In this document: in pieces, positions 1 through 28,213 of the stretch
How the letters are laid out: each line of letters starts with the position of its first letter
How positions within the stretch are numbered: position 1 is the first letter of the stretch
From: Methylomonas sp. 11b
Lineage (GTDB): Bacteria > Pseudomonadota > Gammaproteobacteria > Methylococcales > Methylomonadaceae
NCBI RefSeq assembly: GCF_000515215.1
Contig: NZ_KI911557.1
Location: 186,001-250,000 of the forward strand
Length of the DNA: 64,000 nucleotides
Direction of reading: 5' to 3'
Notes under the pieces: generated by a model
Database searches by the model: none
Told to the model about the DNA's origin: nothing
What the model saw: only the letters and a program-made list of their open reading frames with translations
Translations under genes and position numbers: made by a program

Positions 1-1145
1 CGCAGCATGTAAAACACGGCGTCCAAGCCATCCGGTCTCATACGCCAATAGCGGTACTGGCGGCCTGCGGCATCGCGTTTGGGAATCGCCAAACCGCGTT
101 CGATCAAAATATCCGCCAAGGTATCTTCATCGCGCGGAATACCGGGCACCTTGTCTTTGGCCAGCAAACCGACGATGTCTTGCGCGCCAGTCCGCCAAAC
201 AATATGCACACCGGATTGAAATCGCCATACTCTGGCGCCTTTGTCGTTGACCAGCCACTGGCCTGATTTAATCAAGCGCCGCATCGCATCGAACAGATAC
301 CGCTCGACCGGCATCCCCAACGCCGCATCGACCGAATGCGCATGGGTTTTCAAATCGCGTTCCACGCTTTTGCAGTCTGCGGTAACCACTAACTCATAGA
401 GCTTGCTACCGCGATCCAGACCATGCAAGGTTTCCAGTAGCGCTTGCATGATTTCTGGTCCCGGTTCCAGCAGGTAAGCACGCGACTCACGCGTTAACAC
501 CCGCTCGATAACCAGTGCCGAAAACTGTTGGTGGCGTTTATGACGGTTCTCTCGCCAGCGCAAAAAATAACGATCGATACGGTGTTGTGCCGCCCAGTCG
601 ATCAAATTTTCGTCACAGGGATTCCAGGTGTGCAGCCCCTGACTGTCGGTAACAGCGATATCGGAGACAGGTTTACCAATATCGTGCAATAAGCCGGCAA
701 AACACACGGCCAATCGCCAGCGCGGCTCCAAGGTTTTACGGGATTTGGGTGTGGCGTCGCTTGCAAATAGGCAGCCGTGCGATGCCAGGGACGCCCAATG
801 TGCGACTTCAAGGCCATGCCTAAACAAACCACCGGCGCCGCGATGGTGATGTGATTCGGAGGCCGGCAACAAGTGACTGAATGCGGCATAGCGTGTAATG
901 ACCGGTAGTGCAATCGCCTGATATAACGCATCGGGCAATGCCAATGCCTGCTCTATCGATTGAATCAGCTCGCTTTGGGTGGCCAGAACACGCTCTACCG
1001 ATGCCGCCGGCAGCCCCTTCATGAATGGTGGATAACGTGGAATCTCCTCGCCAGACGATGCCGGTGGTGCACTGACCAAAGCCGGTTTATCGCCCCAAAG
1101 ACGCTGACTGATACGTTGGATGAAAGATGACGTGGCGTTTTCCAT
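1..1145 (-). CDS. traI: MobH-family conjugative relaxase (TraI_2 domain), C-terminus beyond left edge
   Basis: An open frame runs on the minus strand from an ATG at 1145 through the left edge, so about 381 residues are visible. Residues 99-103 read HHHRG and 107-115 read LFRHGLEVA, the three-histidine signature of the TraI_2/MobH relaxase. Residues 152-160 read LLHDIGKPV, the HD metal motif. In the family this protein nicks oriT and pilots the strand through the type IV pore. An in-frame ATG at 1163 would add six residues; neither start has a strong Shine-Dalgarno. The gene diverges from the lipoprotein gene at 1274, and a long palindrome (1178-1219) lies in the shared promoter region. MobH relaxases accompany F-type secretion systems in SXT/R391 and IncA/C elements, which fits the traFHG genes downstream. 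The family call is firm; the missing end prevents a length check. Confidence 0.88.
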   Translation of the reverse strand, partial: MENATSSFIQRISQRLWGDKPALVSAPPASSGEEIPRYPPFMKGLPAASVERVLATQSELIQSIEQALALPDALYQAIALPVITRYAAFSHLLPASESHHHRGAGGLFRHGLEVAHWASLASHGCLFASDATPKSRKTLEPRWRLAVCFAGLLHDIGKPVSDIAVTDSQGLHTWNPCDENLIDWAAQHRIDRYFLRWRENRHKRHQQFSALVIERVLTRESRAYLLEPGPEIMQALLETLHGLDRGSKLYELVVTADCKSVERDLKTHAHSVDAALGMPVERYLFDAMRRLIKSGQWLVNDKGARVWRFQSGVHIVWRTGAQDIVGLLAKDKVPGIPRDEDTLADILIERGLAIPKRDAAGRQYRYWRMRPDGLDAVFYML

Positions 1146-1177
1146 GGCGCCGCATCGTGACATAAAAATTTTGGACC

Positions 1178-1219
1178 CTTCGTACAATAAAGGTCAAATT
1201 CGACCTTTATTGTACGAAG
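1178..1219. promoter_or_regulatory. Long perfect palindrome in the relaxase/lipoprotein divergent promoter
   Basis: Two 18-base arms, CTTCGTACAATAAAGGTC (1178-1195) and its exact complement (1202-1219), flank a 6-base spacer. The palindrome lies 33 bases upstream of the relaxase start and 54 bases upstream of the lipoprotein start. On the minus strand it supplies a TTGACC hexamer that could be a -35 box for the relaxase. A degenerate copy in the opposite orientation and a shorter relative occur upstream of traF (3834-3861 and 3888-3927), so a shared operator is more likely than a terminator. The regulator is not known. Confidence 0.6.
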
Positions 1220-1273
1220 AGCAGAAAAGTTTGTGATTAATGTACTGCGCTTTCTGATTCGTCTGGAGGCAGC

Positions 1274-1753
1274 ATGAACATTGACACCATCCCCCCTCAT
1301 ATTCGCTCGTTTATCCCGATTGTAGGCTTGGCGCTGTGCACGGCTTGCGCATCGCCGAGTGCAGTGGATGAACACATTCACGAAATCGTCATCGGATCGA
1401 TGATGCTTGATTCCAAAAAGCCCTGGCACCTGGATAGTGCCTGGCAGACTGGCGGAATAGGCGGTTCGGCGCTACGGACCGCGTCGATAGAGCATGTTGT
1501 CAGGCAAGTGGATCAGCCCTGGCGGGCCGTAAACGATGCCGATACCGTTGCAAAGCCCAAACACCCTGACAACAGCTTTGCGGATTCAATCGAATTCACG
1601 CAGATCGACGACCCATCCCAGTTGGAACGCGCCTGGCGAAAATACTGCCATCATCAGCTCGACCTGTCGCTTGAGGAACGCGCGCTGATCGACTCGACAG
1701 ACATGCGGGCTGCCTTACAGCATGCCTGCAACCCCAGTAGTCTGCTGAAATAA
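1274..1753 (+). CDS. Small lipoprotein-like protein of the conjugative element, function unknown
   Basis: The protein has 159 residues. The start is supported by CTGGAGG ten bases upstream. A hydrophobic stretch at residues 13-24 ends in LCTAC, an approximate lipobox (the -3 residue is not ideal), so export and possible lipid attachment at Cys25 are inferred. The rest is polar, with two cysteines near the C-terminus (YCHH and HACNP). No family is recognised. It lies nine bases upstream of trfA and is probably cotranscribed with it from the divergent promoter containing the palindrome. Its position beside the relaxase and replication initiator marks it as element cargo or a transfer accessory, but no function can be assigned. 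Confidence 0.7.
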   Translation: MNIDTIPPHIRSFIPIVGLALCTACASPSAVDEHIHEIVIGSMMLDSKKPWHLDSAWQTGGIGGSALRTASIEHVVRQVDQPWRAVNDADTVAKPKHPDNSFADSIEFTQIDDPSQLERAWRKYCHHQLDLSLEERALIDSTDMRAALQHACNPSSLLK

Positions 1754-1762
1754 GGGGGCGTC

Positions 1763-2629
1763 ATGACTATCACAAGCAACGACGCGTTAGGCAATCTCGA
1801 CAACCGCTTTCAAAAACTGGTGGCCCTTAAAAAATCCAAACCCACAAAAGTCGAACCCTTGGCGACTTTACCGCATTGGCCTGCCGGTATGCGCGGCACG
1901 CCGAATGCCTGTTTGCGCAGCGCCTTGTTTGCCGGGGTGCAGGGCAATGAGCGGATAGCGTACAAAAAACGTACCCTATTGGCCGCAGTCGAGGGGATCG
2001 AAGTCCGTTATCTCGGCGTTCAGCTCAATCAGTCCGATCTGGACGTCTGGATGCAGATCGTGCATCTATCCAGAACGCAATTGCCGGGCTTTAGCGTGAC
2101 CTTCAGTGCGCATGCGTTGCTGATGGCTTTAGGCCGATCGACCGGCAAAAGTCAGCACGAATGGTTGAAGGAATCCATGGCGCGTTTAGGCGGCGCCTTT
2201 GTGGAAATCACCTTTCAAGGCCGCGACACCTTTGGCGAAAAAGGGTTCTTACGGTATCACCGTGATGAAGTGACCCATCGCTACGTGGTGGAAGTGACCG
2301 AATCCATGCTGCGCTTGTTTGAAGACGGCTACACCTACATCGAGTTCGAGCAACGTCGTAAATTACGTAAACACCCCTTGGCACTCTGGTTACAGGGATT
2401 TATGTCGTCACATGCAGCGCCCTATCCGTTGAAAATCAACACCATCCACCGTTTGAGCGGCAGCAGTGCCACGACCCTGCGTGACTTCAAATACCGTTTA
2501 CGCAAAGCATTGGAAGCCTTGGTCGACTGCGGTAGTCTGGAAAGCTTTGAGATCGGCGAGGATACCGTCAAAGTTAAAAAACACCCCACAGCGAGCCAGC
2601 AACGGTATTTACAGGGCAACAGCGGTTGA
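1763..2629 (+). CDS. trfA: TrfA-type plasmid replication initiator
   Basis: The protein has 288 residues, close to the 285 of the short form of RK2 TrfA. The central part (HWPAGMRGTPNACLRSALF, then KKRTLLAAVEGIEVRYLGVQ, and later the winged-helix segment around HPLALWLQGFMSSHA) carries the pattern of the TrfA family (PF07042). TrfA proteins bind iterons as monomers, open the origin and recruit the host DnaA and helicase. The start has AAGGGGG five bases upstream. Directly after the stop begins a block of eight direct repeats, then an AT-rich tract and a DnaA box, which is the arrangement expected for an initiator and its own origin. Finding it within 1 kb of a MobH relaxase gene is unusual. 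Confidence 0.9.
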   Translation: MTITSNDALGNLDNRFQKLVALKKSKPTKVEPLATLPHWPAGMRGTPNACLRSALFAGVQGNERIAYKKRTLLAAVEGIEVRYLGVQLNQSDLDVWMQIVHLSRTQLPGFSVTFSAHALLMALGRSTGKSQHEWLKESMARLGGAFVEITFQGRDTFGEKGFLRYHRDEVTHRYVVEVTESMLRLFEDGYTYIEFEQRRKLRKHPLALWLQGFMSSHAAPYPLKINTIHRLSGSSATTLRDFKYRLRKALEALVDCGSLESFEIGEDTVKVKKHPTASQQRYLQGNSG

Positions 2630-2638
2630 AAAAAAGCA

Positions 2639-2821
2639 CGGCATTCGACCGACGCTATTTTGGCTCGGTCGATACGGCATTCGGCCGACGCACTAACGGC
2701 ATTCGACCGACACGGACACGGCATTCGACCGACGGTGGCACGGCATTCGGCCGACAGACACGGCATTCGACCGACAAAAAGCACGGCATTCGGCCGACGT
2801 TTTACACGGCATTCGACCGAC
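2639..2821 (+). repeat. Eight origin iterons (15 bp)
   Basis: Eight direct copies of CGGCATTCGRCCGAC start at 2639, 2675, 2697, 2719, 2741, 2761, 2784 and 2807. Copies differ only at one purine (A in five, G in three). After the first interval of 36 bases the spacing is 20-23 bases, about two helical turns, so the sites face the same side of the DNA. A partial inverted copy sits at about 2664-2674 between the first two. They follow trfA directly and are inferred to be its binding sites. They are too short and closely spaced for a CRISPR array. Confidence 0.92.
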
Positions 2822-2959
2822 GCTCAGTGCGTTTTTTGGAATCGCTGCAAGTCACGATTGGCGTGGCCTACAGCGATTTTCAACGACCTAAAAAATCGGG
2901 TGCTAATCTATTTATAATCTTTTTTTAATCTAAATATAGGGCCGCTGCCCTGTGGATAA
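2639..2959 (+). other. Candidate vegetative replication origin (oriV)
   Basis: The iteron block is followed by a strongly AT-rich stretch (2899-2940), which contains repeated TAATCTA-like words, and by a perfect DnaA box TGTGGATAA at 2951-2959. Initiator gene, iterons, unwinding region and DnaA box in a row match the layout of iteron-type plasmid origins. No origin activity can be shown from sequence alone. Confidence 0.8.
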
Positions 2960-2999
2960 CTTTGGGCCTTGGTCTGCCCATCAGCAGCGTCATCGACAC

Positions 3000-3470
3000 T
3001 CAGTGCGAGCCCGTTGCCATGGCTTTTTGAAACTGCCAATAGGCATCGCGCAGTGTACCCAGCAGGGCCACTTGTTTACGGATATCGGCGAATTCGTTTT
3101 CCAAGGTTTCCACCAGTTGCTGCTCCCAGTCGGGTTCACCCTTCAGGATCCGCTGCAGGGGATAGCGATAGCCAGGACCTTTTTTCAGGTATTGGCAAAT
3201 CGGTTTAGTTTGACCCTTTTGGCGCAGGGTGGCCATCCGGTACCACTCGATGCTAAACGACAAACGACTTTCACGACGACGAATCCGAACGCCAATATGC
3301 CCGCGCTCTTGGGTGGTCACATGTTGATGTCGCTGATTCATTTGTCGCCAGTAATCATCCACCAACATCCGCGCGTGGGCATGCAATTGCTCCGCTTTAC
3401 TCTCCAGCCACACTGGGATGGCTGCATCAGTCGGCAGTAAGGATTCTTTCTCGCTATCGTCGCTTTTCAT
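3000..3470 (-). CDS. MobI-like auxiliary mobilisation protein
   Basis: The protein has 156 residues and a good ribosome site (AGGAAA six bases before the start). The middle segment reads GVRIRRRESRLSFSIEWYR, followed by a basic stretch and a GYRYPLQRI segment; this resembles the MobI family of SXT/R391 and IncA/C elements, which is about the same size and needed to start transfer at the adjacent oriT. The C-terminal half is helical and charged. The gene stands alone on the minus strand between the origin and a repeat-rich noncoding block, as mobI does beside oriT in those elements. The assignment rests on remembered family pattern, size and location, so it is moderate. Confidence 0.5.
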   Translation of the reverse strand: MKSDDSEKESLLPTDAAIPVWLESKAEQLHAHARMLVDDYWRQMNQRHQHVTTQERGHIGVRIRRRESRLSFSIEWYRMATLRQKGQTKPICQYLKKGPGYRYPLQRILKGEPDWEQQLVETLENEFADIRKQVALLGTLRDAYWQFQKAMATGSH

Positions 3471-3830
3471 GAATTTTCCTAATACTTAACTTCAGGGATT
3501 TAGAGTGGTCGTCCCTGAGGGATTTTTTTTGGGGGGGTCCGGTTTGACACAGGGCTGAGGCCAAAAACCTGTACAGACATTTAGACGCCGCGTCCCTGAA
3601 TACTTAGGGATATGTTCTGCGAAACATGGCCAGGTTGACATCGATGTTCCCTGATAACCGGTTTATCGGCCTGTCCCTGTTTAGACACGGCACATTGCCA
3701 ATGACTGAAAATGTTCGCTGAATGTCCCTGATAGATCAGGGAACCGCCGAACGGAAATCCTGCACAGGTTTATGCGCTGAGTCTGATCAAAACCTGCCGC
3801 GGATTCTAGGCGAGGTAAAAACCGATGGAC
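3471..3830. other. Repeat-rich noncoding block, candidate oriT
   Basis: This 360-base noncoding stretch upstream of the MobI-like gene holds at least eight copies of the heptamer TCCCTGA or its complement or a near match (3492, 3512, 3593, 3604, 3648, 3674, 3725, 3736). Two pairs form inverted repeats: 3593-3610 and 3725-3742, the latter TCCCTGA-taga-TCAGGGA. A near-palindrome GATAACCGGTTTATC also occurs at 3652-3666. In SXT-type elements oriT lies beside mobI, so this is the best oriT candidate in the window. The repeats could also be regulator sites. Confidence 0.45.
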
Positions 3831-3833
3831 TGA

Positions 3834-3861
3834 CAATAAAGGCCAAAATCGGCCTTTATTG
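3834..3861. promoter_or_regulatory. Palindrome upstream of traF (copy 2)
   Basis: CAATAAAGGCC and its perfect complement flank the 6-base spacer AAAATC. Core and spacer length match the palindrome at 1178-1219. It lies about 100 bases upstream of traF, and 59 bases centre to centre from the third related site. Confidence 0.5.
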
Positions 3862-3887
3862 CAGCCAAGGTAAAAAAAATTGCCCTG

Positions 3888-3927
3888 TCGTACAAATTAG
3901 GTCGAATTTGACTTTTATTGCACACGA
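3888..3927. promoter_or_regulatory. Degenerate palindrome upstream of traF (copy 3), with -35-like box
   Basis: The sequence from 3888 to 3927 is an imperfect copy, in inverted orientation, of the 1178-1219 palindrome, with the same GAATTT spacer and the TTTGAC(T/C)TTTATTG right arm. In both places the motif carries a TTGAC hexamer pointing toward the downstream transfer gene (relaxase or traF). It is likely part of the traFHG promoter and its control region. Confidence 0.5.
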
Positions 3928-3958
3928 ATAGCCAGGTGACTGGTGTAACAATAGGGCT

Positions 3959-4975
3959 ATGAACCCATATCCCTTCGTACTGTTGATGTTAATGACGTTA
4001 TTGCTGCAGGCATTGACCGCCTCGGCTGATGAGGCTGTCGACAGACCGGTTGCGTCGTATTTCGAAGACAAACAACGCGGCTGGTTTTGGTATGAGGTAT
4101 TGCCGGAGCCGGTAAAAAAAAACCAACCGGAAACTCAAGCCGATCAGGAAAAACCCAAGCCTGACATCAGTCCGCCCAGCGTCGTTCAAACTGAAATTGA
4201 ACCCAAAACACAAGTCCAGCCTTCTGCAGAACCCCAGCCACTGTCCTCAGCCTGGCTGAAGCAAAACTTGGAGCATTACCTGAACCAGGCCATCGACGAT
4301 CCGAGTCCCGAGAATGTGTCGGCGTTTTATTACCTGCAGCGGGTGATGATGGATAAAGCCGAGCGGTTTACCAACGCTGCGCGCTACGTGGTGATGTCCG
4401 ATCCGCAACTCGACGAAACGGTGCGCCGACCGGTGGCAACCTATGCCGCCAATGAAGCCAATCATCAGGCCGGCGTGGTGGCCGAACAAGCCTTGAAAGC
4501 GATTGCCGCCCAAGCCGGTATTTTGTTTTTCTTCCGATCTGATTGCCCTTATTGCCATGTACAAGCACCGATTCTGGCGATGCTGGAAAACGCCTACGGA
4601 TTCAAGATTTATCCTGTGTCGCTGGATGGTTTACCGATGCCGAACGGCTTTTTCAGTCAGTTCAAACGTGATAACGGTCAGGCTGCAATGTTGGGCGTTG
4701 AACAAACCCCGGCACTGTTTCTGATGAAACCGCCCAAGCAGATTGTGCCGTTGGCGCAAGGCGCGTTGTCGTTAGAAGAAGTTACCGGTCGGATTCTGCT
4801 GGCGGCCAAGGAAGCCGGTTGGATCGATGCCTCCCAATACCAAACCACTCAGGGCATCCGTAACACGCCGATGTTGTTACCGGCCGCCGGTAGCATCAGC
4901 CCTGCGGTCACTCAAGATCCACTATCGCTGATCCAGGCATTGCAACGCAGTGCGCATCTCGGGAGTACGCCATGA
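3959..4975 (+). CDS. traF: TraF, type IV secretion pilus-assembly protein with thioredoxin fold
   Basis: The protein has 338 residues. Residues 1-23 form a Sec signal peptide ending ASA. Residues 41-45 read GWFWY, the N-terminal signature of F-type TraF. A proline- and glutamine-rich linker spans about 50-95. A thioredoxin-like domain follows, with FFRSDCPYCH at 191-200 and a probable cis-proline at 251 (EQTPALF). F plasmid TraF lacks the CXXC pair, but related elements keep it, so this form may be an active periplasmic disulphide enzyme. It acts with TraH and others in pilus assembly and the outer part of the pore. The stop overlaps the traH start by four bases (ATGA), so the two are translationally coupled. 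Confidence 0.92.
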   Translation: MNPYPFVLLMLMTLLLQALTASADEAVDRPVASYFEDKQRGWFWYEVLPEPVKKNQPETQADQEKPKPDISPPSVVQTEIEPKTQVQPSAEPQPLSSAWLKQNLEHYLNQAIDDPSPENVSAFYYLQRVMMDKAERFTNAARYVVMSDPQLDETVRRPVATYAANEANHQAGVVAEQALKAIAAQAGILFFFRSDCPYCHVQAPILAMLENAYGFKIYPVSLDGLPMPNGFFSQFKRDNGQAAMLGVEQTPALFLMKPPKQIVPLAQGALSLEEVTGRILLAAKEAGWIDASQYQTTQGIRNTPMLLPAAGSISPAVTQDPLSLIQALQRSAHLGSTP

Positions 4976-6429
4976 TGTCGTTTTCATTTCGCTATCGTTA
5001 CCCATATCGCCAGGTATTAGTATTGATTCTGTTGGTTGAGAGTGCCGTTCCTGCTTATGCCGACCTGCAACAGGAAATGGATAGCATGTTCGGCACCATG
5101 ACCAATTTTACGGCGCCGACCGCCCATTTAGGACAGCGCCGCGGCGTGATTACCGGCGGCAGCCTGGTGGCGCGCAACGGCATCACCAATACCAACCTGG
5201 TTTCCTTCGTGCCGCCGTCGTTCAGCGCCGGCTGCGGTGGGATCGACTTGTTTGCCGGTAGCTTCAGTTTCATCAACTTCAACCAGTTTGTGCAATTGAT
5301 GCGTAATGTGGCTGGCAATGCCGCAGGGTATGCGTTTCAGTTGGCCGTGGGTGCCATGTGTCCCTGGTGTGCGTCGGTGATGACCGACCTGCAAAAGAAA
5401 ATCCAGGAAATGAACCAGATGTTCAGCAACTCATGCAGGTTGGCTCAGGGTTTGGTCAACGACACTGTCAAAGCCTTCGATCTGCAAAGTAAAACCAATC
5501 TGTCCAATGCCTCGTTTACCCAAGGCATTTCGGATGTGTTTTCCAGTTGGACCAATACCAGTACCTTGGGCGATCCGGTGCAACAAATCAAACAAAACGA
5601 TCCCACCGACATGACCAAGGTCATCCAAGGCAATCTGGTTTGGCGGGCTTTGGTCAATCAAAATGCCGGCGGTTGGTTTAGGTTTGGTGGCAACAGTTTG
5701 CTGGAAGCGGCGATGAGCATTTCCGGTACGGTGATCGTCGATGCGCCGCAAGCCGCGCCCGACGGCAAAGGCGAAAACAATGCCATTAGCGCGCCGCCGC
5801 CGGTGTTGCGTATCAAGGATTTGATGTACGGCAACGACGCCGGCAACAGTTATCAAACCGTCAGGATGTATACCTGCAGCGATGGTCATGATGCCGATCA
5901 GTGTCTGAAACCCATCGTCCAGAACGTCAATCTGGTGGGCTTGAAGCAACGGGTGATGGAAATTCTGCTGGGTTCGGCCAATACCGGCAACGGACTACTC
6001 TACAAATTCTCGACCAACAGCGGTCAAATCACCGACAGCGAAAAAGCCTTCATGCAAACCGTGCCGGATGCCATCGGCGGCATGATCCATAACCTGGCTA
6101 GGGAGGATGCCGGCATTGCCAAACTCTGGGCCGAAGAAGCGGCACCGGTGATTGCCCTGGAATTGGCGCAGCTGATTGTCAACGATTTGCTCAACGCTGT
6201 GCAGACTGCGGCACATATGAATGACCACGCCTATGCCAAGTTGTTGATGGACGCTTTGAAGGATGCAAGGGAGCAAATCCAGGACGAATACGTCACCATC
6301 GCCGGTCGCTACGGTAATCCGCAAACCCTGATGGCGTTTTACCAACAATTGATGACCACCGTGAAGCCTAAACACTATGGCACCGTGGCGCAATTGCCGG
6401 CGTCTGGCACCGCTTGGCCGACGCCTTAA
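4972..6429 (+). CDS. traH: TraH, conjugative pilus assembly protein
   Basis: The protein has 485 residues, slightly longer than F TraH. A signal peptide ends at about residue 30 (VPAYA). The conserved N-terminal TraH block follows: DLQQEMDSMFG, the ARNG segment and the glycine-rich SAGCGGIDLF and GSFSFIN motifs (residues 85-102). A CPWC motif sits at 130-133. Coiled-coil helices fill the C-terminal half. TraH is a periplasmic component needed for pilus extension in F-type systems. The gene overlaps traF and lies upstream of traG, the usual traF-traH-traG order. Confidence 0.93.
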   Translation: MMSFSFRYRYPYRQVLVLILLVESAVPAYADLQQEMDSMFGTMTNFTAPTAHLGQRRGVITGGSLVARNGITNTNLVSFVPPSFSAGCGGIDLFAGSFSFINFNQFVQLMRNVAGNAAGYAFQLAVGAMCPWCASVMTDLQKKIQEMNQMFSNSCRLAQGLVNDTVKAFDLQSKTNLSNASFTQGISDVFSSWTNTSTLGDPVQQIKQNDPTDMTKVIQGNLVWRALVNQNAGGWFRFGGNSLLEAAMSISGTVIVDAPQAAPDGKGENNAISAPPPVLRIKDLMYGNDAGNSYQTVRMYTCSDGHDADQCLKPIVQNVNLVGLKQRVMEILLGSANTGNGLLYKFSTNSGQITDSEKAFMQTVPDAIGGMIHNLAREDAGIAKLWAEEAAPVIALELAQLIVNDLLNAVQTAAHMNDHAYAKLLMDALKDAREQIQDEYVTIAGRYGNPQTLMAFYQQLMTTVKPKHYGTVAQLPASGTAWPTP

Positions 6430-6442
6430 TGGAGTCAACCGC

Positions 6443-6553
6443 ATGAGCCTCTGTCCGAACTGCACTACAAGACTCGCTTACTGGTGCTTTCTATCAATCG
6501 TAGGCGTGTCTTGGTTTTACCCTATTTCTTTAAAGGCAATCGCCCATGTTTGA
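6443..6553 (+). CDS. Possible 36-residue protein in the traH-traG gap
   Basis: A short frame opens with ATG at 6443, GGAG lying eight bases upstream, and closes with TGA at 6553, overlapping the traG start by eight bases. The product begins MSLCPNC and has one hydrophobic segment (about residues 12-30) with several aromatic residues. The overlap would couple it to traG. The frame is short enough to occur by chance, so this is only a candidate. Confidence 0.3.
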   Translation: MSLCPNCTTRLAYWCFLSIVGVSWFYPISLKAIAHV

Positions 6554-9500
6554 AATCTTTTCCGTGGGCGATTCCGCCTATTTGCAAGCTGTCCTCAATG
6601 CGATTGCGATGATCTCTGGCACCGGCGACTACAGTGCCGCGGCGGCCGTCGGCGGTTTGATCGGCGTCATCATCGTCATGCTCAGGGCGTTGTTGCAATG
6701 GGATGGCCGAGGCATTCGCTATCAGGATTTATTGCTGGCCTATGTGTTGTGGTTGATGCTGTATGCGCCGTCGGTACGGGTGTCGATCGAGGATGCTTAT
6801 ACTGGCAGCGTGGTAGTGGTCGACAACGTACCGTTGGGGCCGGCGGTCGTAGGCAGCGTGATGTCGAACATGGGTTATCGTACGACACGGTTATTCGAAC
6901 AAGGCTTTGGAACACCGTCGATGACCGGCAATGGCTTTGCCGACAGCTTGCAGACCCTAACGGCGGTACGGAAGAATCTGTTGTCGCGAGTGAATTTAGG
7001 CGCAGCCAACGTGCCGAATGCCGGTAGCGACATGGAAACCTCGTTTGCCAATTATGTGCGTGAATGCACGTTGACCGGTGTTGATTTAAACCAGAAATCG
7101 GTGGATGCCATCTTACGCGATGCGGATCCCCTGAATGCCATCCGCTTCGATTCCGACATCTACATGACCCAAATCTATGTCGGTGGCCAACCGCAAACCA
7201 AAACCTGTACCGATGCCTGGGCCGATTTGAGCGTAGTGGCCAATGGAAATTTTGCGACGGCGCTGGAAGGGTTGTTGCAACCGACCTTGGGCGTACCGGC
7301 GGCAGGCGATACGGTGCCGAAAATCCAGGATGCCTTCGATGCGTTGGCCGGACCCGGCGTAGTCGATGCCGCCGATTACATGCTGATGTCGGCGATCCTG
7401 CCGATGTTCGAGAAAGGCGTGATCGGCCGGCATGAAGACGGTTTGCATTGGAACAAAGCGGCGATGGTCGAGCAAGCCATCCAGCAACGCAACACCCAAT
7501 GGGCCGCCGAACAAACCCTGTTTGCCAAGATCGTCCGACCGATGATGGCCTTCATCGAAGGCTTGAGTTATGCCATCGCACCGATCATGGCCTTTGTGGT
7601 GATGCTGGGCAATGTCGGCATCCGGATGAATATCGGCTACTTCTCGATGTTGCTGTGGATCCAATTGTGGATGCCGATTTTGGCGGTGATCAATCTGTTC
7701 ATCCAAATGTCGGCCGCAGGCAAAATGGCTGCACTGACTACGGCGACTTACAATTTGCCGTCAATGATGGGCATTTACCAGCTGGATATGGAGTTGCAAC
7801 AATGGCTGTCGATTGGCGGCATGTTGGCCGCGTCGACGCCGGCCATCACCTTGATGCTGATTTATCGCGGGGCAGTGACTGCTACCCATTTTTTGGGACG
7901 GATGGACGGTGGCGATTATGTGAACGAGAAAATCGCTACGCCGGATGTGGTCAGCCCGGCGCCGGTCTTGAATGCGCAAGCGCAGCATCAATACAGTCCA
8001 TTGTCGGCGGTTACTCAAACCGGGGTCGACAAGGTGCTGCCGACCTTTACCGCCGGGAAGGACATGAGCGCGGCCGTTTCATCTGCCTATTCAGCGTCCG
8101 AGCAAGCCACCAATAGCTTTATGCATAGCGTGTCGTCCACGGCGTCGAAGTCGGCGAGCATCAGCAGCGATGCGTTTGATAGTCGTTCATTGGGCAATCA
8201 AATCGCCAGCAGTTCCAGTTATACCGATGCCTATAATCGTCAATTTGGCGAAGCTTTTGCCAAGAAGCATGCGGATACTGGTATTTCTGCGGATCACTTT
8301 TCGGCGCTGGTGGCTGGCAGTGCCAATGCCGGCGGCAAGACCTCAAACGATAAATTGAATGCAGCGATTTCGGGGCGACTACAAAATGATTTTAAAGTCG
8401 GTCAGGATAAGTCCGATGCCATCGCCGCCGACATCAGTCAAACCGTCAATGACAGTCAGGGTTATCAAGCCGGCTTGGCTAAAAGCCTGGCACTGGATGC
8501 GCAGACCGGTACCCGAAACGTCGCCTCAATGGGGCTACAAAATCAATCGTTGTCCTCGTTGCAACACAGCGCAACCGACGCGGTATCCGCCAGCGAATCC
8601 TATCAACAAACTTTATCGGCTCAACAACGCTTCGGAACGCAAGCGAGCTTCGGTGCGGCGGAAACGGGATACAAAATCGCGCATGATCCTGGCTTGATGG
8701 AACGCCTGGATCAAACCCTCGATCAATATGGCTTGCGAGGTGATACGCAGCGACTGGCCTCGCAATGGAAAGCCGCCGGTTGGATTAGCGATGCCGATCA
8801 GGCCTATGCCGCCGCTGGCATGTCGTTATTGACCGGCTTCTCGTCACCCAGTTACCGCACGCTGGATGATCAACAATCGCACCAAGCACACATCTCGGGT
8901 TACCAACTGTTGGGCGATGCCTTTAATGCGCCGCAGGCCGATCAAAGGTGGAATGCCAACCGGAACGAAACCTTGAAAACCAATGCTCCTGAAACTGGCA
9001 AGGTTCAGACATCAGTCGAACAGGCTCAGCTTAAAGACCCACGCGTTGAAACCGAATCGCTAGAACAGCGTACGCAGACACGGATTCGTTCAGCGACGGG
9101 GAAAATTGCCGGCGGCGAGGCCAGTATCGAAGCACAACATGATCGTAACCTGGCTGAGCGTGAACAAAACTCAAAAGAAGGCTTTGGGAAATTGGCGAAT
9201 GTCAAGGCAGAGCATTTTAGGCAATCGATTGCGGCTGCGGCCAATGACACGCCTTCTGCTGCAGAGTTGTCTTACAACTACATAGGCGGTGGAGTCTACA
9301 GTACTGCTAAAAATCTTGAAGCCATGGGAGCTGCTGGACAGGAGTACTTGAAACAATTCAATAATAGTTATGATGAAGCGCAGTCAAGAGGTGCTGGAAA
9401 TTGGGACGCTTTTAAACACGCGGCATCCCAGTCCTATCCTGGTTTCGCTCAAGCTACGCAAGCCTGGGCTGATCAAAGAGTCAATAAAGTTGCCGACAAG

Positions 9501-9743
9501 CTGACATCAAGTCAGCAAGCTTATTATCGTGCTGCTATGTTTGAAGCCTTTGATGGGATCGCTGTGAGTAGTGAAAACACTGGTGGATTGGGGGAAGCGA
9601 AGCAGAAGATGATAAATGAAGAAGGCGAAAATGAAGCCAATACTATCGCTAAATTATTGAGAAGTGCAGCTGGCCAAAACAGACAGGATCTGATCGACCA
9701 GATAGGACAATATAATCGAGCCCGTGGGCTGATCAATTATTGA
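6546..9743 (+). CDS. traG: TraG, mating-pair stabilisation and entry-exclusion target protein
   Basis: The protein has 1065 residues, within the range of F TraG (938) and SXT TraG (about 1190). The N-terminal part has membrane segments at about 10-50 and 60-80, a periplasmic region to about 320, then further membrane segments from about 325 to 440, as in TraG_N proteins. From about 500 onward it is serine-, alanine- and glutamine-rich and largely helical, the typical soluble C-terminal half. TraG stabilises mating pairs and, in SXT/R391 and F, its periplasmic or cytoplasmic part is read by the recipient exclusion protein. AAAGG lies about ten bases before the start. The last 150 residues use AT-richer codons than the rest, which may mark recombination at the element-specific end. 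Confidence 0.9.
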   Translation: MFEIFSVGDSAYLQAVLNAIAMISGTGDYSAAAAVGGLIGVIIVMLRALLQWDGRGIRYQDLLLAYVLWLMLYAPSVRVSIEDAYTGSVVVVDNVPLGPAVVGSVMSNMGYRTTRLFEQGFGTPSMTGNGFADSLQTLTAVRKNLLSRVNLGAANVPNAGSDMETSFANYVRECTLTGVDLNQKSVDAILRDADPLNAIRFDSDIYMTQIYVGGQPQTKTCTDAWADLSVVANGNFATALEGLLQPTLGVPAAGDTVPKIQDAFDALAGPGVVDAADYMLMSAILPMFEKGVIGRHEDGLHWNKAAMVEQAIQQRNTQWAAEQTLFAKIVRPMMAFIEGLSYAIAPIMAFVVMLGNVGIRMNIGYFSMLLWIQLWMPILAVINLFIQMSAAGKMAALTTATYNLPSMMGIYQLDMELQQWLSIGGMLAASTPAITLMLIYRGAVTATHFLGRMDGGDYVNEKIATPDVVSPAPVLNAQAQHQYSPLSAVTQTGVDKVLPTFTAGKDMSAAVSSAYSASEQATNSFMHSVSSTASKSASISSDAFDSRSLGNQIASSSSYTDAYNRQFGEAFAKKHADTGISADHFSALVAGSANAGGKTSNDKLNAAISGRLQNDFKVGQDKSDAIAADISQTVNDSQGYQAGLAKSLALDAQTGTRNVASMGLQNQSLSSLQHSATDAVSASESYQQTLSAQQRFGTQASFGAAETGYKIAHDPGLMERLDQTLDQYGLRGDTQRLASQWKAAGWISDADQAYAAAGMSLLTGFSSPSYRTLDDQQSHQAHISGYQLLGDAFNAPQADQRWNANRNETLKTNAPETGKVQTSVEQAQLKDPRVETESLEQRTQTRIRSATGKIAGGEASIEAQHDRNLAEREQNSKEGFGKLANVKAEHFRQSIAAAANDTPSAAELSYNYIGGGVYSTAKNLEAMGAAGQEYLKQFNNSYDEAQSRGAGNWDAFKHAASQSYPGFAQATQAWADQRVNKVADKLTSSQQAYYRAAMFEAFDGIAVSSENTGGLGEAKQKMINEEGENEANTIAKLLRSAAGQNRQDLIDQIGQYNRARGLINY

Positions 9744-10348
9744 AAGGTGGATTTTACTGGTTTTTTCCAGGCTAGGATAAAGACAGCAACAAAGCCACGA
9801 GCAATAATCATAAAGAAAAATAGAGCAACATAGCCAGCTAGCGCCGGGAACTCATGGGCAATAAACATGGAAACTAATACCAATATCGCCCAATAGTAAT
9901 TACTTTGATGAAGAAACTTGGCTGCCATACGCTCGACTCCCTGAAATACTAATTCAGCCAATATCAACGCAAGAAAGAACACCGTTCCGAATGCTGCAAA
10001 CAAACTGATGTTATCTGGGAGGTTTCCCCAGTCAGCAACAAACCATAGCACTACAAGACATATCGTTATAGTTACCAGCTTTTGAAGAACTAAAAAGGAA
10101 AGAACATCTGAATATCTGGATTGGATAAATCGCGTAAAACCCGATGGGAACGATGCAAACGTGCTTCCGCAAAACGGGCAAATCGATTTCAGTGGCTGGC
10201 CATAGTAAGTGACAACTCGTGGCACCATAGAGCGTTTACAGTCATGGCAATGTACAGTGGCATGATGTCCGCTAAAAACTGAATGGACGTTCGATTGCTG
10301 AATCGTGGCTCGGCCTTTAAATCGGTTTGATAGAGAGGATGACATCAT
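9737..10348 (-). CDS. Zinc-ribbon membrane protein next to traG, possible exclusion protein
   Basis: The protein has 203 residues. Residues 34-63 carry CHDC and CPFC pairs, a zinc-ribbon pattern. After residue 85 there are about four hydrophobic segments (around 86-103, 113-133, 148-164 and 168-193). GGGAG lies four bases before the first ATG; a second ATG follows at once. The stop overlaps the end of traG tail to tail by seven bases. In SXT/R391 and IncA/C elements the gene after traG is eex, a small inner-membrane protein that blocks redundant transfer by recognising TraG. The location and topology suggest the same job, but the opposite strand and the zinc ribbon differ from known Eex proteins. 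Function is an inference. Confidence 0.65.
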   Translation of the reverse strand: MMSSSLSNRFKGRATIQQSNVHSVFSGHHATVHCHDCKRSMVPRVVTYYGQPLKSICPFCGSTFASFPSGFTRFIQSRYSDVLSFLVLQKLVTITICLVVLWFVADWGNLPDNISLFAAFGTVFFLALILAELVFQGVERMAAKFLHQSNYYWAILVLVSMFIAHEFPALAGYVALFFFMIIARGFVAVFILAWKKPVKSTFQ

Positions 10349-10665
10349 TAGCTCCCGAATATCTTGGTGCGATTATCGTACGTCGATATTGCAGAATTTC
10401 CAAGTCATGATATTGAAATTATTGGATTATTTTACCTTAAGGTTGATCTATTTACACCCTCAGTCTGACTCAGACTGAGGGCTCATTTATATTGTCTCTA
10501 AGCGCTGAGCACGCCTTGCTTCATTTGCAATTTGTCAGAAACGAATTTAGATTTCTGACACTCGATTTATGAATCAGAGTTTGCAAACAAACTCATTCTT
10601 TAAGAGTGGTACTTTGCTGTCTAAGGCTTTAGCATCAAAATCTAGTGGGTTTCGATTCATGTCCC
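10349..10665. other. Noncoding gap with three hairpins
   Basis: Three inverted repeats lie in this 317-base gap. At 10457-10481 twelve-base arms (CCCTCAGTCTGA and complement) flank a single base. At 10533-10560 TGTCAGAAA pairs with TTTCTGACA over ten bases. At 10577-10594 GAGTTTG pairs with CAAACTC around CAAA. None has a clear T-run in the needed place, although the third is followed by a T-rich stretch on the plus strand. They may act as terminators between the convergent or tandem minus-strand genes. Confidence 0.4.
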
Positions 10666-11814
10666 TCAGCCCGCCAACAAATCGATATAGGACTGGTAAC
10701 TGTAACTGCGGTTTTTTTTAAGCCCGGTAAATTCCACTACGATACCCAGCTCCTCCAAAACCTTGACCGCCGCCGTAGCGGTTGGGAAGGTTGTGTTCAG
10801 TTTCTGGCGCACCTGTTCGATACTGAAGCGCGGCATCATAGGCAAAAGCTCGAACAAACGATAACTGGCCGGACCGACTTTCGTCGCAGCCAGCAGGCGC
10901 CGCCGATCCGCCGTGATCAGGCTGGCAATTGCCACAATATTGCGTTCGGCATCGGTCGCGGCCACCGCCACCGCTTCCAAAAAGAACGACACCCATCCTT
11001 CCCAGTCACCCTCGCTACGGATGGCAGACAAACGGCGGTAATACTCGCTCTGATGTTGTTTCAAGTAGCCGCTAAGATAGAGCAAGGGTTCTGGTAATAA
11101 GCCCCAATGCTCCATTAATGCCGCAATCAGCAAGCGACCAATCCGGCCGTTGCCATCTAGAAACGGGTGAATGGTTTCAAATTGGGCATGCACCAGGGCA
11201 ATTTTTACCAATGGCGGTAACCCGTCAGACGGTGTTGCATGAATGAAACGTTCTACATCAGCCAACAAATCCGCAACCCTTTCCGCCGGTGGCGGCACAA
11301 ACGCCGCATTGCCGGGCCGGGTACCACCAATCCAGTTCTGCGAACGGCGCAACTCGCCGGGTTGTTTACCCGTACCTCTCGCTCCATCCAGCAGTAATTG
11401 ATGAGCATTGCACAACAATCGGACACTGATCGGCAAGCCATCGGCAGCGCGCAGGTTTTCCTGCACCAGACGGAATGCTCGGAGATAGTTGGTCACTTCC
11501 TCCACATCGTCGGTATTACTGACAGCAAAGCCCGCTTCATCGTCAAACAAGTCGGTTAACGTCGCTTGTGTGCCCTCGATTTGTGAGGTCAGTAACGCCT
11601 CCTTTCGGATCGCGCTATACAACAACCAATCTACCGATGGCACTAGGCCGGAAACCCCCGATAACCTTGCCAAGGCCAACTCCGCATTATGATTCAGCCC
11701 CGCAAAGCTTTCGACGGCCAAAGCGGGATTGATCGGCGGTAAGGCATGCGGGACAAACGCCCGCACCGGCTCGCCCAAAGTTGTAGAGGTGATGTAATCG
11801 CCAGTGCTGCGCAT
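10666..11814 (-). CDS. Fic-domain AMP-transferase-like protein
   Basis: The protein has 382 residues. Residues 216-227 read HPFLDGNGRIGR, the complete Fic active site with the catalytic histidine. Residues 76-81 read TSQIEG, the (S/T)xxxE(G/N) inhibitory motif placed N-terminal to the Fic core, which makes this a class II, self-inhibited Fic protein. A winged-helix-like segment follows in the last 70 residues, a common layout (Fic_N, Fic, HTH). Such enzymes transfer AMP from ATP to hydroxyl side chains of target proteins. The gene stands alone between the traG-adjacent gene and the flhDC-like operon, a place where SXT-type elements carry variable cargo. The target is unknown. Confidence 0.88.
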   Translation of the reverse strand: MRSTGDYITSTTLGEPVRAFVPHALPPINPALAVESFAGLNHNAELALARLSGVSGLVPSVDWLLYSAIRKEALLTSQIEGTQATLTDLFDDEAGFAVSNTDDVEEVTNYLRAFRLVQENLRAADGLPISVRLLCNAHQLLLDGARGTGKQPGELRRSQNWIGGTRPGNAAFVPPPAERVADLLADVERFIHATPSDGLPPLVKIALVHAQFETIHPFLDGNGRIGRLLIAALMEHWGLLPEPLLYLSGYLKQHQSEYYRRLSAIRSEGDWEGWVSFFLEAVAVAATDAERNIVAIASLITADRRRLLAATKVGPASYRLFELLPMMPRFSIEQVRQKLNTTFPTATAAVKVLEELGIVVEFTGLKKNRSYSYQSYIDLLAG

Positions 11815-12039
11815 GATATTTAAATTCTTTTTAATTATTCGCCAACATATTAAAGCATTCTTTAATATAAGGCATGGATTTCAAAGAATTCTTGAATTTG
11901 CAAAGTTTGCTTTACTGGGTTATCAAACGCTATAAAAACCTTACATCAGCGAAGGGTTGCGCCATAAGATAGAGAAGACGATCTCAAATCGATGTCCCAA
12001 TGTCTCGAATGCTCATGCCAAGCATCATTCAAACGGTTG

Positions 12040-12576
12040 TCATGTACTTGATACGTTTTTCATGGCACACACCTGGCAGATGGGCTGATAATTGCTGTCA
12101 TAGAAGATCACGAAATCATGATGACATCGACTGCAGTATCGCAATTCTGCCATGCCAGTTTGGATAGCCTCAGCAATCACCCAGGCCTCAGTGAAATTAG
12201 CGGGTCTGATTTTACTGAAAGGTCGTCGCTCACTAATATGACCAGGAAAGGTTTTACAGAAACAATCCCAGGCAAACATCACAGCATTGATATCAATGCC
12301 GGTTTTCACGTTACGTTGACTGGCACAACGATAAATAGACGCAAATACGGCCACATACAAAAATGCTTCGCGGGACCGGGTGATCGAATCGAGGCTAGGG
12401 ATCTTTCCGGGCAGAGGTCTTTCTCGGTGCAGCTTATAATAAATGTACTGTAAATCTTTGTCGCCCAGGCATGAAATGATTTTTTTGACGATCGAAGTGC
12501 GTAATTTTCGCTTTAGCAATTCATATAACAGCCAATGCTCGTACCACTGCAATTGGTAAGGGTGCGAGCGCCTCAT
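12040..12576 (-). CDS. FlhC-like transcription activator subunit (SetC/AcaC type)
   Basis: The protein has 178 residues (E. coli FlhC has 192). Four cysteines at 148, 151, 167 and 170 (CSRC and CQVC) form the zinc site that is diagnostic of FlhC. SXT/R391 (SetC) and IncA/C (AcaC) elements encode FlhC relatives that, with an FlhD-like partner, switch on all transfer genes. The start overlaps the end of the FlhD-like gene by four bases, as expected for subunits of one complex. Together with the relaxase and traFHG nearby, the role as master activator of transfer is a strong inference. No flagellar genes are in the window. Confidence 0.82.
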   Translation of the reverse strand: MRRSHPYQLQWYEHWLLYELLKRKLRTSIVKKIISCLGDKDLQYIYYKLHRERPLPGKIPSLDSITRSREAFLYVAVFASIYRCASQRNVKTGIDINAVMFAWDCFCKTFPGHISERRPFSKIRPANFTEAWVIAEAIQTGMAELRYCSRCHHDFVIFYDSNYQPICQVCAMKNVSST

Positions 12577-12878
12577 GATGCGCCATCCTGGGCTAGTATC
12601 GATAATAATTCTTTGGCCCGATGTTCTGGAGAATCTGTGGCAAATGTTTGTATTTCAATAAATTCTCGCCAGTGACTGGGATTGATTCGAGGACTAAATT
12701 TTAGATAGTCGCTTCCAGCCAATGCTTTCAGCTGTTTGATCGACATATTGCGGAGTATTTCAATGGCGTCTGTCGGCAAACCAAGATAAAACTGAGCCTT
12801 ATACGCATCGCCGGCGGCAATCATCCCTTTGGCCACCAGCAAGTAATCCAGGTTGAGGTTATACAAATCATTGTCCAT
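12573..12878 (-). CDS. FlhD-like transcription activator subunit (SetD/AcaD type)
   Basis: The protein has 101 residues, slightly shorter than FlhD (about 116). It starts DLYNLNLDYLLVAKGMIAAG and continues with FYLGLPTDAIEILRNMSIKQL, the helical dimer core seen in FlhD-family proteins. It precedes and overlaps the FlhC-like gene by four bases on the minus strand, so the partners are translated together. By analogy with SetDC and AcaDC the complex would bind operators upstream of the transfer operons; the related palindromes at 1178 and 3834-3927 are candidates for those sites, which is untested. Confidence 0.72.
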   Translation of the reverse strand: MDNDLYNLNLDYLLVAKGMIAAGDAYKAQFYLGLPTDAIEILRNMSIKQLKALAGSDYLKFSPRINPSHWREFIEIQTFATDSPEHRAKELLSILAQDGAS

Positions 12879-12891
12879 TCAAATGACCTGT

Positions 12892-13539
12892 CTAAATGAT
12901 CGTTCTGATATGCGCTGCTAGGTTAATGACATTTTGGCCATACTCAATGGCGGCAGGAATATTCTTCCAGTTGTAATAACGCCCTACACCCAAGGCGAAG
13001 TTATCTGGCGATGATTGAATCGCTTTGGCGAGCAACTCAGCGCCTATCTCGAGGTTGGTCGTTGGATCGAGCAACTGTTCGGGCTTATCAACCCGGTGGC
13101 CATGCCAGCGCAGATTGACTTGCATAATGCCGATGTCGACATTTCGGTTACCTTCCTTCAGCAGCTGTTTAAGCTGGATAATAGCGTCTTGTTTATTCGT
13201 TGTAATGATGGCTTTGCCGGCATGATTTAGCGCCCAGGGCCAAGGTGTTACTTTGTTTTTCTGATGATGATTTTTCGACTCGATCAACGCTACTGCATAC
13301 AAGACATAGGGATCCAGTTGATGTCGTGCAGCGACGTCCCCCCATACCGTGGTTTGCAGTAAAGATTTGGCAGAAAGGATGCTGGCCGATCGCTCACTTG
13401 ACTGGTTTTCAGCCGCCCAGCTTAACTCGTTTGAAAAACTGGATACGATGCCAATCAATAGCGCGATATGACTGGGTATAAGTGGTATTGGTCTGCCCCG
13501 ACCTCGCGCCGGTGTGACTTTGGTTAAACTCAATAGCAT
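12892..13539 (-). CDS. Lytic transglycosylase (SLT domain) of the conjugation apparatus
   Basis: The protein has 215 residues. A hydrophobic N-terminal segment (about 22-42, ending WAAEN) suggests export to the periplasm. The SLT domain follows: LYAVALIESKN with the catalytic glutamate at 87, then GIMQVNLRWHG, the NLEIGAELLAKAI helix and ALGVGRYYN. Such enzymes cut the glycan chains of peptidoglycan to let the transfer channel through. It is the first gene of an operon with the FlhD-like and FlhC-like genes (13-base gap), the same neighbours that slt has in IncA/C and SXT elements. Confidence 0.85.
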   Translation of the reverse strand: MLLSLTKVTPARGRGRPIPLIPSHIALLIGIVSSFSNELSWAAENQSSERSASILSAKSLLQTTVWGDVAARHQLDPYVLYAVALIESKNHHQKNKVTPWPWALNHAGKAIITTNKQDAIIQLKQLLKEGNRNVDIGIMQVNLRWHGHRVDKPEQLLDPTTNLEIGAELLAKAIQSSPDNFALGVGRYYNWKNIPAAIEYGQNVINLAAHIRTII

Positions 13540-13745
13540 GACACGCTCTCATTCAATGAAGATTAATGAAAGTGTAAAACCTGCAGCCGGAGAAAACTGG
13601 TTTAAAAAATCACCCGTAGGGTCGATATTCGTGGATTATGGATAGGGCATCATCAACAAAGCGTTGGCAAACGCTTGGTGATTTCCGTGTGATCAACGCG
13701 ATAGCATGACAATAAGTCTCCTTAAACAAGCATTAGGAGTTCGTC
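13540..13745. promoter_or_regulatory. Divergent promoter region between slt operon and recombinase gene
   Basis: This 206-base gap must hold the start signals for the slt-flhD-flhC-like operon on the minus strand and the recombinase on the plus strand. A hairpin with arms AAGCGTT and AACGCTT lies at 13659-13676. A clear ribosome site (AGGAG) precedes the recombinase start. No convincing -35/-10 pair was identified. Confidence 0.35.
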
Positions 13746-14375
13746 ATGAATCAGGAAAATCCAAGCAATCGGAATCGGCACGCCCCTTGGAACAAAGGTA
13801 AGTTGATTGGCCAGAAATCGCCTTTAAAGTTGAAAGAAATCTGGGCCATACGCATCCGTTTGCAGATGACCAAAAACACACGGGAACTAGCGTTATTCAA
13901 TCTTGCCATTGACAGCAAACTCCGAGGGTGCGACTTGGTGAAGCTTAAAGTCTGCGATGTGGCTCAAGGCGGCCGGGTATCATCTCGCGCAATGGTCATG
14001 CAACAGAAAACCCATCGTCCGGTGCAATTTGAGATAACCGAACAAACCAGAGACTCATTAGCAAACTGGATTAGCCAGGCTCAATTGAAATCCGATGAAT
14101 ATCTTTTTCCTAGTCGAATTCATGAATCACCACACATTTCAACCCGGCAATACGCTCGCATTGTTGAGCATTGGGTGACGTCAATCGGTCTTGATCCAGC
14201 AGCATACGGAACCCATACGATGCGCCGGACAAAGGCAACCTTGATTTACCGTCGGACAAAAAACTTGCGAGCTGTCCAGCTATTGTTGGGTCATACCAAG
14301 CTTGAAAGTACTGTACGTTATCTTGGAATAGAGGTTGATGACGCACTAGAAATTTCGGAACAGACCGAAATTTAG
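13746..14375 (+). CDS. Tyrosine recombinase, catalytic domain only
   Basis: The protein has 209 residues, half the length of a standard integrase. It contains the catalytic set of the tyrosine recombinase family: Arg60 (SKLRGCDLVKLK), a lysine in the beta-hairpin near 88, His157-x-x-Arg160 (THTMRR), His183 (LLGHTK) and the nucleophile Tyr192. It lacks the N-terminal core-binding domain. AGGAG seven bases before the ATG supports this start. Short forms of this kind are frequent on plasmids and integrated elements, where they may resolve multimers or use a partner for DNA binding. It diverges from the slt operon. Its role in integrating the element is uncertain. Confidence 0.82.
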   Translation: MNQENPSNRNRHAPWNKGKLIGQKSPLKLKEIWAIRIRLQMTKNTRELALFNLAIDSKLRGCDLVKLKVCDVAQGGRVSSRAMVMQQKTHRPVQFEITEQTRDSLANWISQAQLKSDEYLFPSRIHESPHISTRQYARIVEHWVTSIGLDPAAYGTHTMRRTKATLIYRRTKNLRAVQLLLGHTKLESTVRYLGIEVDDALEISEQTEI

Positions 14376-17775: not shown

Positions 17776-17844
17776 GGCTACTCTGTACGGGTCAAGATTT
17801 GTCCGGCACCCAGATAGGTTGTGTTTCTGCCCTGTTGACTGCAT

Positions 17845-23640: not shown

Positions 23641-23720
23641 ATTCTTTCATGACAAGGCTCAAAAATCAGATAATCTTTCTAAGTCTCAAATCGTTTATTC
23701 ATTTTCAAACCTCAAGAATC

Positions 23721-24602: not shown

Positions 24603-24786
24603 ATCCGCATATAAATTTCAACCTTCGCAAACCGCTTTTAATTCGGCGCATTTCAAACTATAAGCACGGCTTATCGTTCTTCAACAAATCCCTATTTCTC
24701 AAAACCATTTCTCCGCATTAGAGTGTTGCCGAAGTCAGGAAAATTAACCTTTTCCCTTTTCGGCAAGCGATCCTTGGAGGCGGGCG

Positions 24787-25242: not shown

Positions 25243-25307
25243 AAACAGTATTCGAGTCCCTGAAAGCCGCATTAAAACAACTTAGTCGATGTGAGAGGTT
25301 TGCAACC

Positions 25308-28204: not shown

Positions 28205-28213
28205 TGAATAGCC

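Follow-up and report, generated by a model that had tools for sequence, protein, structure and literature searches.

A TrfA replicon built into the transfer backbone of a recurrent lineage of SXT/IncC-type integrated elements in Methylomonas and its relatives

The window analysed here is a stretch of 64,000 nucleotides from Methylomonas sp. 11b, positions 186001-250000 of a single 5,412,720-base contig that is its chromosome, and its first part (window 3-13539) is the transfer and replicon core of an integrated element, encoding a MobH relaxase, TrfA, MobI, TraF-TraH-TraG and an slt-flhDC set. Gene families were assigned by Pfam and NCBIfam profile searches, which recovered all of the MobH relaxase, traF-traH-traG, slt-flhD-flhC-like and TrfA genes named in a first-pass annotation made from the letters alone. 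That annotation had also listed a MobI-like gene and iterons. There is indeed a mobI gene, at window 3000-3470 on the minus strand, while the gene at 1274-1753 is not mobI and is called orf159 here; the iterons are present as well, in eight copies and accompanied by a DnaA box. Together with what was found in relatives, the locus represents a genuine and recurring lineage of SXT/IncC-type integrative and conjugative elements (ICEs) with a built-in TrfA replicon, of which the literature searched holds no description. The features on which this rests are, in window coordinates:

3-1187, minus strand: traI, MobH relaxase, N-terminal part (PF07514, 9.2e-84; NF041494 MobH, 1e-123); the gene runs left to genome position 184812
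1180-1217: putative palindromic operator (TCGTACAATAAAGG...CCTTTATTGTACGA) between traI and orf159-trfA
1274-1753, plus strand: orf159, lipoprotein-like, upstream of trfA, matching no Pfam or NCBIfam family at E 1e-3
1763-2629, plus strand: trfA, replication initiator (PF07042, 4.7e-19)
2638-2822, plus strand: oriV iterons, eight copies of CGGCATTCGRCCGAC, start-to-start distance 36, then 20-23 bp
2900-2939, plus strand: A+T-rich stretch with TAATCT words
2951-2959, plus strand: DnaA box TGTGGATAA
3000-3470, minus strand: mobI, relaxosome accessory gene (PF19456, 1.5e-32)
3471-3830: candidate oriT, non-coding, with repeated TCCCTGA/CAGGGA words, upstream of mobI, position predicted
3833-3863: putative palindromic operator upstream of traF
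3892-3922: second, weaker putative operator copy upstream of traF
3959-4975, plus strand: traF (PF13728, 5.5e-73)
4972-6429, plus strand: traH (PF06122, 2.7e-104)
6546-9743, plus strand: traG (PF07916, TraG_N, 8.1e-108)
9737-10348, minus strand: orf203, candidate entry-exclusion gene, in the slot of eexS in R997
12040-12576, minus strand: flhC-like (setC/acaC-type) activator subunit (PF05280, 3.3e-6)
12573-12878, minus strand: flhD-like (setD/acaD-type) activator subunit (PF05247, 8.5e-9)
12892-13539, minus strand: slt, lytic transglycosylase (PF01464, 4.1e-7)
35270-35318, plus strand (genome 221270-221318): attR, right end of the element, a 49-bp copy 94% identical to genome 70177-70225 (tRNA-Met 3' end)

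The iterons were found as seven in-register copies by repeat search and as eight when the motif was scanned for with three mismatches allowed, and they are not a chance pattern because they recur at the same place in relatives, with 7-9 iterons at near-fixed spacing in 26 of 30 copies. An A+T-rich stretch follows the iterons in the ten relatives or copies whose sequence was displayed, and the DnaA box is present, exactly or with one mismatch, in 21 of the 28 copies uncut by a contig end. With a TrfA initiator, iterons, an A+T-rich stretch and a DnaA box, the segment between traI and traF appears to hold a compact and complete TrfA iteron replicon with a predicted working origin. In one further copy of the element on this chromosome (copy B, below) and in some relatives, the A+T-rich stretch of oriV is followed directly by other DNA, at the place that the DnaA box occupies in other copies. 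The open reading frame orf100 (2626-2928) was rejected as a gene, being the iteron array read as protein, and so was orf162 (2952-3440), which lies opposite mobI. No phage record matched TrfA, and no solved structure matched the TrfA profile.

Across 29 copies of trfA (192 pairs with usable dS, the synonymous divergence) the median ratio of nonsynonymous to synonymous divergence (dN/dS) was 0.059; the medians for transfer genes were 0.035 for TraD, 0.038 for TraH and 0.072 for TraG, the pairs in this and the following distance comparison not being independent. By these estimates TrfA is under purifying selection. The gene upstream of it, orf159, gave chance-level Pfam matches alone at E up to 10 and has 156 homologues, the named ones mostly from Methylomonas and relatives; members have a lipoprotein-like N-terminus and a RAWRKYCH core that is invariant in 28 aligned sequences. 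It lies beside trfA in 25 of 27 named loci, and its distances track those of TrfA (rho 0.84, as against 0.28-0.52 for the other genes tested).

The core belongs to an element of approximately 151 kb, here called A, that is integrated at tRNA-Met (genome 70177-221318). The window begins about 116 kb into the element and holds its right part, which ends at window 35318. The tRNA-Met gene occupies genome 70144-70221 and is followed by an integrase gene at 70236-71264. When the outer flanks of the element were joined (300 + 500 bases), 800 of the 800 bases matched positions 902613-903414 of contig C1 of a congener (G020) at 97% identity, which is evidently the empty site of element A. The att repeat and the empty site place the TrfA finding within one element of about 151 kb, without an att junction between replicon and transfer genes. 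Copy A has the marks of an ICE, namely an integrase gene adjoining a tRNA gene, att repeats and an empty site in another genome, together with its own predicted relaxase, coupling protein and F-type type IV secretion system (T4SS) genes.

Most of the transfer genes lie left of the window on the same contig: traL, E, K, B, a DsbC-like gene, traV, a signal peptidase gene, a TrbC-type gene, traU and traN, with DUF4400 and TraD genes adjoining traI. A recombination block on that side holds ssb, RecT (bet), YqaJ (exo), a CbbQ-type ATPase, DUF3150, a CobT-like gene and DUF4942. Pfam supports TraI, TraD, TraL, E, K, B, V, U, N, the TrbC-type protein and TraF, H and G, TraC (genome 144347-146761) is placed by order and size only, and TraA was not identified in the transfer gene set of element A; the predicted set is nearly complete. 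The mobI product is 28% identical to MobI of the plasmid of Methylomonas sp. DH-1. We propose an oriT at 3471-3830 because oriT lies immediately 5' of mobI in SXT/R391 and IncA/C elements (PMC4542580). The candidate exclusion gene orf203 is 39-46% identical among the copies on this chromosome, compared with 89-90% for traG, and the FlhC match is barely above the cut-off (27.4 vs 27 bits).

Two further elements with the same blocks were detected by blastn on the same chromosome, B (TrfA at genome 422987-423865) and C (TrfA at 1842964-1843833), and in all three trfA stands between traI and mobI/traF. Over the alignment, TrfA of A is 77% identical to that of B and of C, and B and C are 96% identical to each other; their iterons are nearly alike. 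Between A and B/C, identity is 50-51% for traI and 94-98% for traD, and the FlhC-like proteins are 46-50% identical, as against 82% between B and C. Copy C has a clear 54-bp repeat in tRNA-Asn with an integrase gene beside it. Among the matches listed no congener matches its joined flanks as one piece, and its outer flank also occurs in G020, with a TraH gene some 10 kb away, which may point to a neighbouring island. The ends of copy B are tentative, marked by a 19-bp repeat, itself internally repetitive, that occurs at 302890 and 472206. Beside the right repeat, genome 471633-472810 holds what is left of a traD and an integrase gene, which probably derive from another, decayed element.

The same arrangement recurs well beyond this chromosome. 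Two peptide patterns drawn from TrfA of A, B and C were used to scan species genomes; they favour close relatives and gave 27 named loci, 25 of them labelled Methylomonas, Methylobacter, Methylovulum, Methylomicrobium, Crenothrix, Methylococcaceae or Methylococcales and the other two coming from one Rhodocyclaceae and one Gammaproteobacteria metagenome-assembled genome (MAG). A traI gene stands upstream on the opposite strand in 26 of the 27, the last contig starting 198 bases before its TrfA match, and traF follows downstream within the available DNA in 18. The closest named locus is that of Methylomonas methanica R-45363 (TrfA 98%, neighbouring genes 92-98%, orf203 57%). Methylomonas sp. LW13 has four TrfA loci, with which the TrfA places of the congener G025 coincide. 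The contig labelled as a Rhodocyclaceae MAG (L032) has a TrfA 93% identical, with traI and traD, and represents either a misbinned contig or a wider host range.

The named loci overlap partly with two genome sets, one congeneric and one of the order. Thirty-seven genomes of the genus contain 38 TrfA places (18 genomes) and 42 TraH places (20 genomes), and at 34 of the 38 TraH lies downstream of TrfA on the same strand within 60 kb, the longest gap being 39.9 kb. One of these 34 pairs (G033), whose TrfA match is partial (25 bits) and whose TraH is divergent, may fall outside the family. Eight TraH places have no TrfA: five are lower-scoring and on other contigs (G002:C51, G004:C2, G006:C2, G007:C4, G030:C2), and three are in assemblies of 120-380 contigs. 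In the order-level set of 251 genomes, the 61 TrfA places listed outside the genus were set against 47 TraH places, five partial pieces of TraH genes already counted having been left out; 10 of the 61 have a TraH partner, and the partners in G120, G147 and G161 are in pieces. TraH is downstream on the same strand in these 10 genomes, all of the same family, and the three pairs that were read have the order traI-orf159-trfA-traF-H-G. Two loci (f4) have traFHG at 54-59% identity and no TrfA in the 40 and 30 kb examined. The first-pass annotation had asked whether replicon and transfer genes sit on separate mobile units; in the three copies, the 26 loci and the 34 places they stand together, and its proposal of a separate lineage is supported, the element being of the integrated kind.

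Replicon and transfer genes also appear to have a common type of promoter site. In copy A the palindromic motif ACAATAAAGG-N10-CCTTTATTGT occurs five times in the 457 and 280 kb that were read, at four promoters: ssb/bet, traL, traI/orf159-trfA and traF (two, the second weak). Copies B and C have a common motif, TTGCAGCTGACG-N10-CGTCAGCTGCAA. With up to five mismatches allowed it was hit eight times, each element having a single hit at every one of these four promoters; at seven mismatches there are further matches, two adjoining the traF sites and one within a gene. When letters were shuffled in 200-base blocks (n=20), the mean number of hits was 0.3 for the A motif against five observed (at most 4 mismatches) and 0.0 for the B/C motif against eight. 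Of 33 sequences, 16 have clear palindromes at the traI/orf159 promoter and at the traF promoter alike, and in these the mean site identity is 0.79 within an element and 0.57 between elements, a figure reached in 0 of 501 shuffles; relatedness inflates it (7 of the 16 are of the B/C type), but at least four different motifs are involved. The FlhC-like proteins differ in parallel with the operator types (A vs B/C). We infer that the FlhDC-like complex may bind these putative operators, and because they are common to the traI/orf159-trfA and traF promoters, replication looks wired into the transfer regulon.

Compared with known systems, the element shares with the resistance-spreading SXT/R391 family a MobH relaxase, MobI and chromosomal integration. 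R997, which we take to be a member of that family, has a TraD 60.9% identical, an annotated ssb-bet-exonuclease-AAA ATPase-DUF3150-VWA block (pR997) and the order traF-traH-traG-eex-flhC-flhD-slt. The SXT/IncA-C order claimed in the first-pass annotation thus holds for traFHG, the eex slot and flhC-flhD-slt, as a core common to both in gene content and local order, whereas mobI with the replicon lies between traI and traF here, the ssb-bet-exo block is at the other end and the overall arrangement differs. The SXT/R391 family is defined by a SetR-type repressor and by integration in prfC with the SXT integrase, and copies A and C are instead in tRNA-Met and tRNA-Asn; the TrfA/iteron replicon and a second FlhDC-like cluster by the integrase are further differences. 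IncA/IncC plasmids have MobH and F-type transfer genes, an iteron replicon of their own and an FlhDC-like activator, as here, and TraD is about 58% identical to that of plasmids of Salmonella, Enterobacter and others taken to be of the IncA/IncC kind. Their initiator is named RepA, whereas this element has TrfA, iterons of another sequence, and an integrated state with att sites and an integrase. The IncA/IncC iterons are given as 19 bp in PMC7433901.

Within the plasmid collection searched, the nearest transfer genes are those of Methylomonas plasmids (TraG 47-48%, TraD 69%). The 278-kb DH-1 plasmid has MobI, slt and FlhD, but it is a plasmid and has no TrfA match in the 43 kb examined. These Methylomonas plasmids (L058, H31-H34) carry a sister transfer system, and integrated and plasmid lineages coexist in the genus. 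The TrfA replicon, for its part, resembles those of the autonomous plasmids pNWAT02, pA12BJ1, pH1NP1 and Azotobacter unnamed4 (5.6-29 kb), whose TrfA is 44-48% identical, with iterons 20-22 bp apart directly downstream of trfA in all four and an exact DnaA box in three; the iterons of pA12BJ1 are similar in sequence to those of the element. Unlike the element, these plasmids have none of its transfer genes annotated in the 3.9-6.8 kb stretches read, and in the three compared the gene upstream of trfA has no blastp match to orf159. Among 72,556 plasmid records, 583 have a TrfA match and none of these reaches 60% identity. Two TrfA relatives were looked at more closely: R716, presumably IncP-12 (its rep is named repP-12A), has no such transfer genes in 21 kb of annotation, nor has Allochromatium pAt1 in 41 kb.

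The nearest known case is trfA on helper-dependent SGI1-like islands (PMC8409611, PMC9035990). The first of these papers describes a yicC-specific group in which an AcaCD site is predicted 5' of trfA, and the second describes a trfA-like rep on islands without self-transfer. Like the element, they are chromosomal islands with traG, an FlhDC-type activator and trfA, but they need a helper IncC plasmid, whereas the element has its own MobH relaxase and predicted T4SS genes. For SGI1 itself, PMC7433901 reports a rep promoter that depends on the activator and, downstream of rep, an oriV with iterons. FlhCD-like activators of mobile elements have been grouped into SXT, IncA/C, SGI1, pAQU1 and pAsa4 types (PMC4542580), and in the available part of that grouping the sole word starting with 'Methylo' is Methylophaga. 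Among the matches listed, we found no description in the open-access literature of a self-transmissible SXT-like family with a TrfA replicon, and the accessible parts of a Methylococcus paper (on ICEs) and a Methylocaldum paper (conjugation genes, trfA absent) describe no such family.

We consider it probable that the Methylomonas chromosome carries three related ICEs, of a Methylococcales lineage of the SXT/R391-IncC superfamily, in which a TrfA replicon is fixed in the backbone and is co-activated with transfer on induction, the element then replicating as a plasmid. With trfA assumed silent in the integrated state, a cue would relieve repression, and the element-encoded FlhDC-like complex would bind its own palindromes at the ssb/bet, traL, divergent traI/orf159-trfA and traF promoters, switching on recombination, transfer and trfA together. 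The integrase would excise a circle, TrfA would bind the iterons and open the A+T-rich stretch with host DnaA/DnaB, and the circle could undergo theta-mode plasmid replication for as long as the transfer window lasts and then reintegrate. The replication step itself is conjectural, with SGI1, whose rep depends on an activator and has an iteron oriV downstream, counting as a parallel. For the lineage as a whole, we put at about even the chance that a theta replicon is fixed inside the transfer regulon under each element's own activator and operators, near-identical replicons lying silent and becoming plasmids on induction, so that these elements would be a stable intermediate between plasmid and ICE.

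Several observations weigh against induced replication. In 7 of the 28 uncut copies no DnaA box occurs in the 420 bases downstream, and two uncut copies have only 5 and 2 iterons. In copy B oriV and mobI are about 12 kb apart (genome 424-436 kb), and no DnaA box turned up in 500 bases read beyond this insert. For the operators, 17 of the 33 sequences were dropped, one or both palindromes being unclear or the promoter lying beyond the available DNA, one of the 16 retained (L033) has two palindromes unlike by eye, and FlhC was available in 5 copies, too few for activator-operator co-variation. No copy was found as a plasmid, and the replicon might be little used. Moreover, replication of SXT/R391 after excision depends on TraI and oriT (PMC4489591), so a second replicon is not obviously needed.

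Some of these points would fit a relic, in which a conjugative plasmid ancestor gained integrases and TrfA/oriV now contributes little: the lost DnaA boxes and reduced iterons, the cargo directly beside oriV in copy B and, in genus genomes of 1-5 contigs, the position of every TrfA place on contigs C1, C2 or C3, taken as chromosomal. We regard a relic as unlikely, since the dN/dS of TrfA falls between those of TraD and TraG, regularly spaced iterons are retained in most copies and an internal stop is reported at just one of the 38 TrfA places in the genus. TrfA/oriV might alternatively serve mainly in competition, titrating or destabilising related elements, whether resident or newly arriving in the cell, as SGI1 replication does with IncC plasmids (PMC7433901), and up to four TrfA copies on one contig (G025) and the close likeness of TrfA and iterons in B and C would suit this; but near-identical replicons coexist in one chromosome, and we rate it as quite improbable. 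That a TrfA plasmid or island merely recombined into an unrelated element here is scarcely credible: TrfA is common on plasmids, and a class-level search (369 genomes, E 1e-30) gave six further TrfA genomes, 29-34% identical, whose flanks, about 1.5 kb in length, show none of these transfer genes, but the recurrence of the arrangement, in position and orientation as far as contigs reach and outside the genus too, already contradicts it, as do the operators common to replicon and transfer promoters.

On the favoured reading of an inducible replicon, a related integrated lineage with a dedicated replicon makes testable why some ICEs need one of their own, and likewise plasmid-ICE interconversion. 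With several copies, a methanotroph chromosome is itself a set of natural replicates, and a new branch of FlhDC-like activators becomes accessible through the operators specific to each element.

The remaining features of element A are accessory or lie near its ends. Two are genes close to the core:

10666-11814, minus strand: Fic-domain protein (PF13784, PF02661)
13746-14375, plus strand: short tyrosine recombinase, 209 aa (PF00589, 4.1e-19)

The recombinase was rejected as the element integrase: it has no counterpart in copies B and C, and the integrase gene adjoins tRNA-Met instead. Adjoining that integrase gene, and also present in copies B and C, is a second FlhC/FlhD-like cluster (genome 71680-73749), which makes two FlhDC-like sets per element; one of its proteins combines a match to FlhD below the threshold with a STAS-like DUF4325 domain. 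The cargo of element A at window 16006-34678 includes a histidine kinase, CheB-CheR-PAS and GGDEF-EAL proteins, LysR, SelR, cytochrome P460 and an SF1-like helicase with ankyrin repeats.

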